Of a stretch of 22,174 bases of DNA, positions 10,349 to 20,553 are shown in pieces (the stretch's first letter is position 1; each line of letters starts with the position of its first letter). Both the position numbers and the translations under genes were made by a program. Origin of the DNA: a virus; the IMG/VR virus record IMGVR_UViG_3300032267_000877, positions 1 to 22,174 of that record; one strand, 5' to 3'. The notes below the pieces were generated by a model. That model worked only from the letters and a program-made list of their open reading frames with translations. It had not been told where the DNA came from and made no database searches.

Positions 10349-10887
10349 TACTTCACCTCATTATGGAAATATAGGACTTTGGGAATAAACTCAATCTTAC
10401 CGCCAAGGTTGGCTAGTCGATTGATGAAGGTTCCATCTGCTTCGTAGTGGCGGTCTTGGTAGCCAGCCTGACGAGCATAGGTTGTCTTGGCAATGTAATT
10501 GCCAGAGGTGGATTGCCCAAGGGCAAAGGATGGAGTGTGATTCCTACTCCAACCGCAGTATATCACATCCGCGCCACCCGATGCAGATTCCATCATCTCT
10601 TGGATGAAGGTCTGGTCGTAGGAGTCGTCGTGGTTGAACCACGCGGTGTATTCAGATGTCGCCAGGTCAAGCCCCTTGGCCCTCTTGTCGTGACCCCAGT
10701 CGTTGAGGTTTGGCTCTTCGTAAAACCTGACCCACGGAAACCGTTGCCAAACGCCCTCAAGATCAATCTCAGAGCAGAGGGCAATGATCTCATCGGGCTT
10801 CTGGATTTGCTTCCCCAGTAGCTCCAGCATACGAACAAGGTTCTCCGAGTCCGCATGAGCAGTTACCACGACGGTGATGCTCGCCAT
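10348..10887 (-). CDS. GT2-family glycosyltransferase (179 aa)
   Basis: A GT-A fold glycosyltransferase that would transfer a sugar from a nucleotide donor. The beta-strand start ITVVVTAHADSENLVRMLE is the standard GT2 entry. A conserved central block, AKGLDLATSEYTAWFNHDD (70-88), supplies the DxD-like metal site (H86-D87-D88), and YEADGTFINRL (148-158) carries the likely catalytic acidic residues. At 179 aa it contains little beyond the catalytic domain. The ATG at 10887 is preceded by GGGAG about 7 nt upstream, so the start is credible even though it lies 98 nt inside the cytidylyltransferase gene. It may build a glycan together with that neighbour. Acceptor and sugar are unknown; virion, cell-surface or DNA-base glycosylation are all open. 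Confidence 0.88.
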   Translation of the reverse strand: MASITVVVTAHADSENLVRMLELLGKQIQKPDEIIALCSEIDLEGVWQRFPWVRFYEEPNLNDWGHDKRAKGLDLATSEYTAWFNHDDSYDQTFIQEMMESASGGADVIYCGWSRNHTPSFALGQSTSGNYIAKTTYARQAGYQDRHYEADGTFINRLANLGGKIEFIPKVLYFHNEVK

Positions 10888-11311
10888 TGATTCTCCCTAT
10901 AATGTCGCTAGTAGAAATACCAGCGGTATATGGAATGTACAGCATTGAGATGTCTTTGATGTCTAGCCAGTGCTGGCTAATGTTGAGTTGGTTAAGAAGG
11001 CTATCGCCAGTCCAATCGTCACCATGCGCAATAAACTTGATCTTGCAATCACGCGGCATTGCGTCAATGGTGACCCAACTGTCTTCGTTGCCGATGTTGA
11101 CAACAACCTTGTCCACAAATCGACACGCATCCAGCGCATCGTAGCGTTCTGCAAGAGAGAGGATTGGTCGCCGCTTATACCGAGCAGCAAACTGGTCTGT
11201 GTTGAGGGCAACGATTACCTTGCCGTACTCAGCGCACTTGCTGAGGAAATTGATGTGTCCAGAGTGGAAGAGATCAAATGTCCCACCAACATAGACCCAC
11301 TTGTCGGACAT
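10790..11311 (-). CDS. TagD-like nucleotidyltransferase (glycerol-3-phosphate cytidylyltransferase family, 173 aa)
   Basis: This family joins CTP and a phosphorylated alcohol or sugar to make a CDP-activated precursor. The nucleotide-binding signature GGTFDLFHSGHINFL (9-23) has the HxGH site (H16, H19). HGDDWTG (96-102) matches the GDDWEG block of TagD, and TAGISTSDII (129-138) matches the RTEGISTT block. The arginine of RTEGISTT is a tyrosine here (PYTAGISTS), so substrate or efficiency may differ from true TagD. The core is complete by residue 141. The last 32 residues, with three Cys (NCSCGLGEPC), are read through the start of the glycosyltransferase gene in another frame. It starts in a TAATG overlap with the endolysin stop. 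Other family members act on ethanolamine, ribitol or heptose, so the exact substrate is unknown. Confidence 0.9.
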   Translation of the reverse strand: MSDKWVYVGGTFDLFHSGHINFLSKCAEYGKVIVALNTDQFAARYKRRPILSLAERYDALDACRFVDKVVVNIGNEDSWVTIDAMPRDCKIKFIAHGDDWTGDSLLNQLNISQHWLDIKDISMLYIPYTAGISTSDIIGRINGEHHRRGNCSCGLGEPCSYAGATGEANPEAR

Positions 11312-12426
11312 TACTTCTTCTTCTGGAAGCCGTAGTCCGTGGAGCTTGGGTCAAGCGCCTTCACGATAACCTGGAGCGCCGAGGCGAGTCCAGCGGATAG
11401 CACCAGACGGAAGTCTCCCCCGTTGATGTCTAGGAGCGGAATGCCCAATCCAAGGGCAACCGAGATGCTGACGGTCAGGAATGTCCGAACCGCGTCAAGA
11501 ATCATCTCGTCAATTTTGCTGTTTGCTGCGATGTACTTAAACCATGCGCCAATCTTACCCACGGTGGTCTCCTCCTTCTTGGCGGCCTCAGCCGCGCTTC
11601 CTGCCAGAGCTAGACCCTTTGCTCCGATTGATGCCCAATTGACGTTCTCTAGGGCTTTTACCGCAACATCCAACTGGGATGGTGTCTTTATACCAGATGT
11701 TACTTTTGGAGCCTCTACGAGCTTCCTAAGTGCCTCTACGTTGATTGCGGGAGCCACCTGCGCGACCGCTGGAGTTGCAACTGGGGCGGCTACCTTACCT
11801 GGGTGCGTCACGATCAGCAGGCACTTATAATCGGCGGCAACCTTGCCAGCCTTGACCTTGCTGTTGGCGATCTGCTTGAGCTGCTCTTCGGTAACTAGCA
11901 CGCCGTACTTTTCGGTGGCGGCCTTTTCGTCGCGGGTAGGGCATGACCACTGCCAACCGTGATCTTCGCACCACGCGGCGCTAGTCATATGCCCGTAGGT
12001 TCGGGTAGGCTGCTTCTGCTTGACCCACCACCACTTCTTCCACGCATCGTGCCACTTGCTGATGTGGATGTCTGGGTAGCCGAGCGGCTGCTGCACCCAT
12101 ACCATCAGCGCGGCTCCGCCCTTTGCGGCGGCTACGGCATCAGCCCACGACTTTGCGTAGCGTGCCTTGCCGCCAAGGACTGCAATGGTCTTGACCGCTT
12201 CGGGTAGTGAACCGCCAGCATCGCTGACGCCCTGCTTATCCTTGCGGCCAGTCGCCTTCTCAAACGCGGCAACGCCTTGGGCAGCAGTGTAGTCCACCGT
12301 GTAGCCAGAAGCCCACGAGACTGCGGCGGCACACGATGACCATGTGCAGTCATCGAGCACCTGCTTGGCGCCCTTCTGCTTTGCCTCAGCGTCTGAGTAG
12401 AGTTGCGACTTGACCCGATACTGCAT
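11311..12426 (-). CDS. Endolysin fused to holin-like C-terminal domain (371 aa)
   Basis: Residues 15-160 look like a papain-like/C39-like cysteine peptidase. DDCTWSSCAAAVSW (25-38) offers Cys27 or Cys32 as nucleophile, and GHMTSAAW (145-152) offers the catalytic His146. In this gene position such a domain would cleave peptidoglycan cross-links. Residues 205-250 are an Ala/Pro/Val-rich linker. Residues 313-358 contain two hydrophobic segments (RTFLTVSISVALGLGIPLL and VLSAGLASALQVIVKAL) separated by DINGGDF, resembling r1t-type holins of Gram-positive phages. A muralytic enzyme and a membrane anchor or pore module therefore share one chain. The ATG at 12426 follows GGAAGGA. It is the last gene of a probable three-gene lysis cassette. 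The peptidase assignment is by pattern; an amidase or a virion-associated lysin is the main alternative. Confidence 0.72.
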   Translation of the reverse strand: MQYRVKSQLYSDAEAKQKGAKQVLDDCTWSSCAAAVSWASGYTVDYTAAQGVAAFEKATGRKDKQGVSDAGGSLPEAVKTIAVLGGKARYAKSWADAVAAAKGGAALMVWVQQPLGYPDIHISKWHDAWKKWWWVKQKQPTRTYGHMTSAAWCEDHGWQWSCPTRDEKAATEKYGVLVTEEQLKQIANSKVKAGKVAADYKCLLIVTHPGKVAAPVATPAVAQVAPAINVEALRKLVEAPKVTSGIKTPSQLDVAVKALENVNWASIGAKGLALAGSAAEAAKKEETTVGKIGAWFKYIAANSKIDEMILDAVRTFLTVSISVALGLGIPLLDINGGDFRLVLSAGLASALQVIVKALDPSSTDYGFQKKK

Positions 12427-12429
12427 TTG

Positions 12430-12600
12430 TTAATCCTTCCAGCGTAGTGGTCCCGTCAGGAACCATACTAGTGTCAACCCCGTGAAGATTGATGCCATTG
12501 TGTCTCGTGTTGCCCCTTCTGGCAGCACCACGACTGCAAAGAGAAGTCCAAGGATCGTCCAAGACCCACCGACTAGATCGTTAATAATTTTTGTAATCAC
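12430..12600 (-). CDS. Small two-helix membrane protein, putative holin (56 aa)
   Basis: Starts at GTG 12600, overlapping the preceding stop as GTGA, and ends three bases before the endolysin ATG. It has two predicted transmembrane helices, roughly residues 13-27 ([13 protein letters not shown]) and 36-50 ([15 protein letters not shown]), joined by a short polar loop PEGATRDT and ending in the basic tail PLRWKD. Size, topology and position immediately upstream of an endolysin fit a small holin or antiholin. No sequence family is recognised. Because the endolysin also has a holin-like tail, this gene could be the pore former or a regulator of it. Confidence 0.75.
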
Positions 12601-13352
12601 TTCTTATTTCTCCCTGTGTTGGAGGCTGCAACCGCAGCCGCTGCTGCTTGGGCTACCTGACTCACGATGATTGCCACCGCAACTGGTTGAGCCTGCTTCT
12701 TCTCCTCGACCGAGAGATCTTTTCCTAGGTTGGTGACTGCTTCGACCGCTTCGCCAATGCTTTCCGAGATCGCCGCAACTGCTTCCGCGACTGCCGCTAC
12801 TGGATCAGGAGGCGGAGCCACGGGCGATGGTGGTGGCTCCGTTGGTGTCGGTGGCGGCTCTGTTGGAGTTGGTGGCGGTTCAGTTGGTGATGGCGGTGGC
12901 TCCGTTGGCGTTGGCGGAGGTGCCGTTGGTGTTGGGGCTACGCTCGGCTTAGGGCTTGGCGTAGGCTGCGGAGTTTCAGTCGGAGTTGGCGTTGGGCTTG
13001 GAGTCGGCTCTTCAGTCGGAGTCGGAGTCGGCTCTGGTGTTGGCTCTGGCGTCGGCTCAGGCGTCGGGCTGGGTGTAGGCTCTGGTGTCGGCTCAAGGCT
13101 AGGCTCCACACTCGCGCTCGGCGTTGGGTTCGGTTCCCACGGAATCGGATCCCACGGTCGATTTGGTAAACAGAGTTCGCTCCATAGGTTTTCCCACGGC
13201 TGGTCCTCCCACCAGAGTGGCCCCCACATCTGAAACTCTCCCGTGTAGGGATTCCAGTCTCCGCACCAGACTTCTTGCTGGTTTGCACGTGCAATTCTTG
13301 GGAGAACAAAGCTTACTGTAAGTAGAAGTCCCAATAAGGCTGCGGAACGCAA
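12597..13352 (-). CDS. Exported Trp-rich protein with Pro/Thr spacer and hydrophobic tail (251 aa)
   Basis: The only start compatible with the upstream in-frame stop is TTG 13352, directly after the TGA of the previous gene, so translation is probably coupled. Residues 1-23 are a signal peptide ending ARA. Residues 24-73 form a compact Trp-rich domain (nine Trp) with two Cys (C30, C61) that could form a disulphide. Residues 74-184 are an extended Pro/Thr/Glu spacer, first PTPEP-type then PTPTEPP heptads. Residues 185-220 are helical, and 222-243 are a hydrophobic Ala/Val-rich helix before a basic end. The arrangement is secreted head, wall-length spacer, possible membrane anchor. It lies just upstream of holin-like and endolysin genes, so a lysis accessory or wall-spanning role is plausible inference. 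It may instead be a virion or surface protein. Confidence 0.8.
12801..13133 (-). repeat. Pro/Thr-encoding tandem repeat tract
   Basis: Two repeat regimes lie side by side. At 12807-12914 there is a 21-bp unit encoding PTPTEPP-type heptads in five imperfect copies. At about 12920-13133 there are 6- and 12-bp units encoding PT/PEPT. The plus strand reads as GGTGTCGGCTCT-like blocks. Such tracts can change copy number by slippage or recombination. Confidence 0.9.
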
Positions 13353-19787: not shown

Positions 19788-20048
19788 ATGGCATACCGAT
19801 ACACGGAAAACGACGTGCGAAGCGCCCTCATTGGGTTATGCAGGGCGGCGGGAGCTCCCGTAGCCGGAGGCGTAGGATCGTACCAGTTGAGGGCAATCGA
19901 TAGCACGGGCGCTCAGGCGCTCTTTGTGCAGGTCAATGAGCATGGCGGCGTGCGTCGCCTAATTCCTGGATACACGGCGAAGACTAAGCGCGAGCTTTGT
20001 ACGATGGTGCAAGCGTACCGCCAGGGGTTTGAGGCGGCGCGTGCATAG
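19788..20048 (+). CDS. Small phage protein of unknown function (86 aa)
   Basis: Starts two bases after the previous stop, with AAGGAGGG upstream. An alpha/beta arrangement: an N-terminal helix (ENDVRSALIGLCRAAG), a beta-meander (GSYQLRAIDSTGAQALFVQV), a Gly turn (NEHGGVRRL), and a C-terminal helix (TKRELCTMVQAYRQGFEAA). The layout resembles short actinophage proteins with a C-terminal helix after a GG turn, but I cannot name the family with confidence. It overlaps the next gene by eight bases. Confidence 0.8.
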   Translation: MAYRYTENDVRSALIGLCRAAGAPVAGGVGSYQLRAIDSTGAQALFVQVNEHGGVRRLIPGYTAKTKRELCTMVQAYRQGFEAARA

Positions 20049-20553
20049 CCGGGCGGTGTGGGCGGCATATGGTATGGCCGCCCTCATCGTTGCGTGCATC
20101 ATGTTGGGCTATGTCGACGGCGTGCGGGGGGCTGAGGAGCCGCCCCGTACGCCGCACGGCGTACCTATGTCTGGCGTTGCTACGTGGTACGGCGCACGAT
20201 GCCCGCGAGGGGTGTCGGTGTATGGCCGTACCGATACCTGCACGCCCTACAAGAGCGTTGAGCAGGGCGGGCGCGGCGGCGAGCTTGTGCTCTATGCCGC
20301 CGTCGGTACGTTTACCTACTACGCCAAGCCGTACCGGGTGCGGGTGTGTGTACGCGGTGGCACAACTTGTGTCATCGCCGTCGTGCGCGACTATTGCCAC
20401 GGCGCGTGGAAGGCCTTGCGGAAGCCCTGGAATAGCGCGAGCCGGGTCATAGATTTGAGTCCGCATCTCTGGGTCGCCCTTGGGGTTCCGCTCTCGCGTG
20501 GCATCATGTATGTCGAGATCACAGAGTTAGGAGGTGTACGCAGGGGGTATTGA
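20041..20553 (+). CDS. Secreted RlpA-like double-psi beta-barrel protein (170 aa)
   Basis: Residues 5-30 form a signal or anchor helix (VWAAYGMAALIVACIMLGYV) with a cleavage-like site near GAEEPP. The mature part starts with SGVATWYG (44-51), the hallmark of RlpA-type double-psi barrels. It continues with VVRDYCHG (114-121, D117) and RVIDLSPHLWVALG (135-148, D138), ending LSRGIMYVEI. Five Cys (54, 67, 103, 110, 119) suggest one or two disulphides in the exported form. Related barrels occur in lytic transglycosylase-like RlpA, Rpf proteins and expansins, all acting on cell wall. GTG 20041 has GAGG six bases upstream; TTG 20029 is possible. The enzymatic activity is not certain from sequence. 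Confidence 0.75.
   Translation: MHSRAVWAAYGMAALIVACIMLGYVDGVRGAEEPPRTPHGVPMSGVATWYGARCPRGVSVYGRTDTCTPYKSVEQGGRGGELVLYAAVGTFTYYAKPYRVRVCVRGGTTCVIAVVRDYCHGAWKALRKPWNSASRVIDLSPHLWVALGVPLSRGIMYVEITELGGVRRGY

Follow-up and report, generated by a model that had tools for sequence, protein, structure and literature searches.

A putative lysis gene of freshwater viral contigs joins a papain-like peptidase to a holin-like domain and preserves a conserved internal start

The stretch of DNA analysed here, hereafter the window, is a virus record of 22,174 bases. Its minus strand carries at positions 11311-12426 an open reading frame of 371 codons, which starts with ATG at 12426, runs to 11311 and has no internal stop; the plus strand across the same interval is rich in stop codons in the same frame. 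From the N-terminus, the encoded chain consists of a predicted cysteine peptidase domain, a linker rich in alanine and proline, a helical segment and a membrane domain with two hydrophobic helices. The initial annotation had described this gene as an endolysin with a holin-like domain on the same chain, and an intact fusion of this type is indeed present. The identical protein is encoded on a sister contig of 41,052 bases (G001), and a first scan of viral contigs found relatives encoded in 151 stretches, the best 80 of which show 57-100% identity and are nearly all full length. As the same fusion occurs in many independent contigs, a sequencing error or a lost stop codon between two genes is excluded, and the fused gene is intact, genuine and common to many freshwater viral contigs. 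Among known isolates, tblastn with either the whole protein or a free holin as a query gave no match in 50,697 phage records.

On its 3' side, the fused gene is followed by genes for a cytidylyltransferase, a glycosyltransferase and the large terminase. The cytidylyltransferase-like and glycosyltransferase genes (10351-11311, minus strand) stand between the lysis gene and the terminase, an unusual site for sugar-modifying genes. On its 5' side are encoded a 56-residue membrane protein, a Pro/Thr-rich protein, a 162-residue protein and a tail fibre. The 56-residue protein (12430-12600, minus strand, GTG start) has two hydrophobic helices by hydropathy, as had already been noticed for a membrane protein just upstream, and represents a second holin-like gene (TM2), which is kept at this place in the majority of fused cassettes and in many split ones. 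The Pro/Thr-rich protein (251 residues; 12597-13352, minus strand) has, as judged from sequence and hydropathy, hydrophobic segments at both termini and a Pro/Thr-rich middle, and similar proteins are encoded upstream in L121, L134, L143 and L151. In L134 (1170-1358), L143 (2733-2921) and L151 (2863-3048) there is also a 62-residue protein that begins with a coiled-coil-like stretch and has one membrane helix, a layout like that of XhlA. Such a protein is encoded upstream in many relatives, was not found beside the cassette of the window, and is possibly a third lysis membrane protein. Elsewhere in the window, a plus-strand gene (20029-20553) encodes a hydrophobic N-terminal segment followed by an RlpA/DPBB-like region; its product, for which the match to DPBB_1 on the sister contig is below threshold (E 0.0099), could be a second wall-acting protein. 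No clear lysin was seen among the open reading frames scanned in part of the 41-kb sister contig, and a WhiB gene is absent from 20 related contigs. Distant relatives of the capsid protein occur in phages of Bacillus and Streptomyces, which hints weakly at a Gram-positive host. A 6-kb contig with the fused gene (L082) is binned in a Rhodobacteraceae MAG; it is probably a stray phage contig there, and Rhodobacteraceae are not adopted as the host on this account.

The N-terminal domain (residues 1-209; 11800-12426, on the minus strand like all features of the fused gene below) is predicted to be a papain-like, C39-type cysteine peptidase. Searches of Pfam, PHROGs and the PDB gave no sequence match for the window protein, which thus stays below the gathering score of Peptidase_C39_2 (PF13529). 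This family is matched by 7 of 33 relatives, with a best E of 8.8e-5, and the peptidase of L121, which is 53% identical to that of the window, scores 22.2 bits against a cut-off of 24. The AlphaFold2 model of the domain, computed from a 33-sequence alignment (A6), has a pLDDT of 92.1 and a pTM of 0.91. In a Foldseek search, its top match among solved structures is the pseudomurein endoisopeptidase PeiR (E 8.6e-4), and further matches include phytochelatin synthase Alr0975, staphopains and C39-like peptidases. The scores of the relatives, the model and the structural matches together make the assignment well supported, and the C39/papain pattern of Cys27, Cys32 and His146 that had been recognized earlier has held up except for Cys32. 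Cys27 (12346-12348), the candidate nucleophile, is invariant in all peptidase relatives, of both the CTW and CGP types, and His146 (11989-11991), the candidate catalytic histidine, is invariant in 39 non-redundant fused homologues; Cys32 is Ala in L018 and is rejected as a catalytic residue. In A6, His146 is missing solely from L192, where the whole block is gone; this split peptidase (L192, 4001-4531) is a defective gene or an assembly fault. Gln8 (12403-12405), which is invariant in 33/33 sequences of A6, is a candidate oxyanion-hole residue by analogy with C39-like families, and the 39 homologues also keep Gln8, Asp25, Asp26, Trp29 and a CPTR motif at 162-165 unchanged. Cys27 opens helix 27-39 of the model and His146 lies within strand 144-153, an arrangement that conforms to clan CA, with Cys at the N-terminus of a helix, His on a later strand and Gln preceding the Cys. 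Where a third catalytic Asp would usually stand, the CTW type of the window has Cys162 (11941-11943) of the CPTR motif and the split CGP-type relatives have Asp (ADPT). No hydrophobic segment was detected in the domain by hydropathy. The fold and the gene neighbourhood suggest that it acts on peptidoglycan.

The Ala/Pro linker that had been described is present at about residues 210-250 (11677-11799); besides its composition, it is marked by a pLDDT below 50 and by variable length among homologues. It is followed by a helical segment (residues 251-288; 11563-11676) that is seen in the fused forms, with AlphaFold2 helices at 251-260 and 264-282 of low confidence and an invariant A278. The C-terminal domain of about 83 residues is not a soluble one by hydropathy and has the two hydrophobic helices expected of it. 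The first (about residues 312-334; 11425-11493) includes a hydrophobic segment at 316-334 with a mean Kyte-Doolittle value of 1.96 and is modelled as a helix at 305-326, and the second (residues 341-359; 11350-11406) has a mean value of 1.6 and is modelled at 336-358. The term r1t-holin-like, which had been applied to this arrangement, is retained for the layout only, because the domain matches no holin of Pfam or PHROGs and because hhalign comparison with r1t-type holins (n=9) on two alignments was not significant (E 0.11-0.13); membership of the r1t holins is not supported by these results. The layout is that of Class II-like holins, that is, a small protein with two hydrophobic segments, encoded by free genes that adjoin the peptidase gene in split relatives. 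The domain is 79% identical to the free holin of L134, and BFVD gives the name Holin to a standalone homologue with 76% identity. Presumably, the domain has holin activity.

A search with the C-terminal domain alone gave 411 related stretches with three architectures: fusion to a peptidase of the window type, fusion to distant C39-like peptidases of the DDCGP type (L109, L115, L116, L119, L120 and L156), and free genes. A scan with the L109-type peptidase recovered the L109 type alone. The free genes encode holin-like proteins of 79-90 residues and lie directly after a separate peptidase gene, as in L121, L134, L143 and L151; a second search with diverged members added further free genes, on contigs of up to 85 kb. 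The loci examined comprise 150 fused and 103 split ones in redundant counts, or 89 fused and 73 split distinct ones. Peptidase and holin modules are adjacent in the split loci examined, where the two genes overlap or sit within about 30 nt and most holin starts are preceded by a Shine-Dalgarno (SD) sequence. Because related contigs carry both modules as separate neighbouring genes, the gene of the window is regarded as the truly fused form of a split cassette. On the peptidase tree, the fused and split states interchange: parsimony requires at least six changes, and strongly supported branches make two of these unavoidable.

Like these split cassettes, a conserved start inside the fused gene is an addition to the initial annotation. 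The in-frame GTG codon of residue 289 (11560-11562) lies in the sequence GCC AAG AAG GAG GAG ACC ACC GTG GGT AAG, 8 nt after the SD sequence AAGGAGG (11571-11577), and initiation at this codon would produce a free holin of 83 residues (289-371; 11311-11562), which falls in the length class of the standalone holin genes. The predicted short product is similarly about 80-84 residues in most fused genes. In the window, the pairing energy of the internal SD with the anti-SD sequence (-11.7) is the strongest of the starts compared, the value for the gene's own start being -5.5. This site holds ATG or GTG together with an SD-like sequence in 73/76 distinct fused genes, and in 42/44 representatives (fused genes below 90% nucleotide identity) versus 17-29/44 in control windows, although these counts are not independent because the sequences are related. 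The mean SD energy is -7.05 at the site versus -2.86 at 971 other internal ATG/GTG codons. Where valine occupies the start column, it is encoded by GTG in 15/15 cases, while GTG accounts for 30% of the valine codons across these genes. A subgroup with differing amino acids (VKGAPAKM) has its start three codons later and retains both the SD and ATG/GTG. In L153 (1558-2648) a stop codon closes the peptidase and the linker has become an out-of-frame remnant, with the SD, an ATG and an 82-residue holin intact; the break could be an assembly fault, although it involves several linker deletions rather than a single base. No ATG/GTG is present at the site in one small group of fused genes (L048, L063 and L069). 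The holin domain of these three is strongly diverged. The predicted accessibility of the internal start in the window is low (0.21), compared with 0.64 at the main start and 0.19-0.55 at other starts. A synonymous-shuffle test gave z -3.4 (0/400) at the site; as one control window came close to this value (z -3.0), the argument from synonymous constraint is not relied on. The conserved start with its SD, the exclusive use of GTG for valine, and the survival of start and holin in L153 suggest that the internal start is used and that the gene probably yields a free holin besides the tethered endolysin-holin. The fusion had been proposed to tether the enzyme to the membrane. A tether may well be formed, but a free holin is apparently produced alongside it, so that the idea of a holin serving solely as a tether is probably incomplete.

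The fusion, the fold, the homology to split cassettes and the conservation of the internal start are computed results, and the reading preferred here, to which a fair but not a strong likelihood is given, is that of a lysis gene of freshwater tailed phages with nested in-frame products, a tethered peptidase-holin and a free holin, which would co-assemble and deliver the enzyme at the lesion. The full-length product would be a cytoplasmic papain/C39-like cell-wall peptidase connected through the Ala/Pro linker to a two-helix holin, and the 83-residue product from the internal GTG, or from ATG in many relatives, would be the free holin. By hydropathy, the fused chain lacks an N-terminal hydrophobic signal segment, which points to cytoplasmic synthesis of the enzyme. 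A C-terminus facing the cytoplasm is suggested by the Lys-rich tail, and hence an N-terminus on the same side; the topology is thus presumably N-in/C-in. Co-assembly is conceivable because the same helices are present in both products. Free and enzyme-bearing holin would build up in the membrane, the enzyme facing the cytoplasm; after triggering of the holin and opening of the lesion, the enzyme, held at the rim by its flexible tether, would meet the wall at once. Preservation of the original holin start inside the fused gene may be the way in which such a fusion is tolerated. In its boldest form, offered only tentatively, the proposal is a one-gene, two-step lysis device whose co-assembled lesion bears the enzyme on its rim, so that no diffusion of endolysin is needed, and which phages switch between fused and split states.

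Alternatively, only the full-length fusion might be made, its C-terminal helices being a membrane anchor and the upstream 56-residue protein the true holin, as has been proposed for LysAP and a pinholin. The 56-residue gene is a conserved neighbour, the internal start is missing from three fused genes and poorly accessible by prediction in the window, and LysAP of phage AP1 depends on its C-terminal transmembrane domain (TMD) for localization and lysis (PMC8879335). This is nevertheless considered unlikely: the same C-terminal domain is a free gene beside the peptidase in many relatives, where anchoring is impossible, the internal start is conserved, and BFVD names the free form Holin.

Doubtful to a similar degree is a role of the enzyme-bearing product as an antiholin or timer, with both products made. 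In this case, the bulky N-terminal domain would block assembly and titrate the free holin until a certain ratio is passed, and the enzyme would exit via the lesion, perhaps after cleavage of the linker. Holin genes with two starts that give holin and antiholin are established, as in lambda S; the linker is predicted to be disordered; and an excess of free holin is plausible because the internal SD is stronger than the main one. On the other hand, the split relatives manage without a tethered form. Least probable, and by a clear step, is that the gene encodes no endolysin and that the N-terminal domain is a processing or regulatory cysteine peptidase with the holin-like domain merely for membrane location: clan CA peptidases act on many substrates, a wall-binding domain was not seen, the third catalytic residue is unusual and the RlpA-like protein could be a second wall enzyme, but the gene adjoins a second holin-like gene, its nearest fold is a cell-wall endopeptidase and the partial scan of the sister contig offered no other clear lysin.

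To return to the preferred reading of two nested products, precedents are found for its parts, namely holin-endolysin fusions, C-terminally anchored endolysins and internal starts in endolysins; the open-access literature yielded none that combines them all, and no report of a holin as a C-terminal isoform of an endolysin. As had been pointed out, holin and endolysin are usually separate proteins, although natural fusions and endolysins with C-terminal anchors have been described (PMC9527704, PMC8879335). It is debated whether free endolysins pass through large holin holes or holins move associated enzymes across the membrane. The widespread fusion, with its split sister cassettes and built-in start for a free holin, is a directly testable system in this respect, in which single codon changes would alter the ratio of the products or the tethering. 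In six Clostridium sporogenes genomes, a natural fusion of the TpeE family (WP_163247266.1) likewise joins holin and endolysin on one chain, and has served as an argument that the attached enzyme is flipped (PMC9527704). There, the holin is N-terminal with one short transmembrane helix (TpeE) and occurs in bacterial genomes, and the accessible text describes no internal start; in the window type, the holin is C-terminal with two helices, occurs in many phages and has a conserved internal start. Another similar case is LysAP of Acidovorax phage AP1, an endolysin with a C-terminal transmembrane region, required for lysis, and a holin gene nearby. It differs in that its single TMD is an anchor or export signal and not a module found also as a free holin gene, and the accessible part of the report mentions no internal start (PMC8879335). 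With the r1t-type holins of Lactococcus phage r1t and actinophages, the holin domain shares a small two-helix form beside an endolysin gene, a charged segment before helix 1 and a short Asp-containing loop, while sequence and profile matches are not significant. The peptidase resembles Peptidase_C39_2 and PeiR in its fold and its invariant Cys and His, and relatives score near the Pfam cut-off, whereas the window protein has no Pfam match and has Cys162 in place of the triad Asp. Endolysins from phages that infect Gram-positive bacteria often have in-frame internal starts, and the short products are wall-binding or catalytic-plus-binding (PMC9430671). The family of the window shares with this class the conserved start codon and SD, its short product being a predicted one. 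As in Lys170, CTP1L and LysP7951 (PMC9430671, PMC4777826), one gene would give two in-frame products with a common C-terminus; those endolysins yield as their short product a wall-binding domain, or a catalytic domain with a binding domain, whereas in the window it would be a holin.
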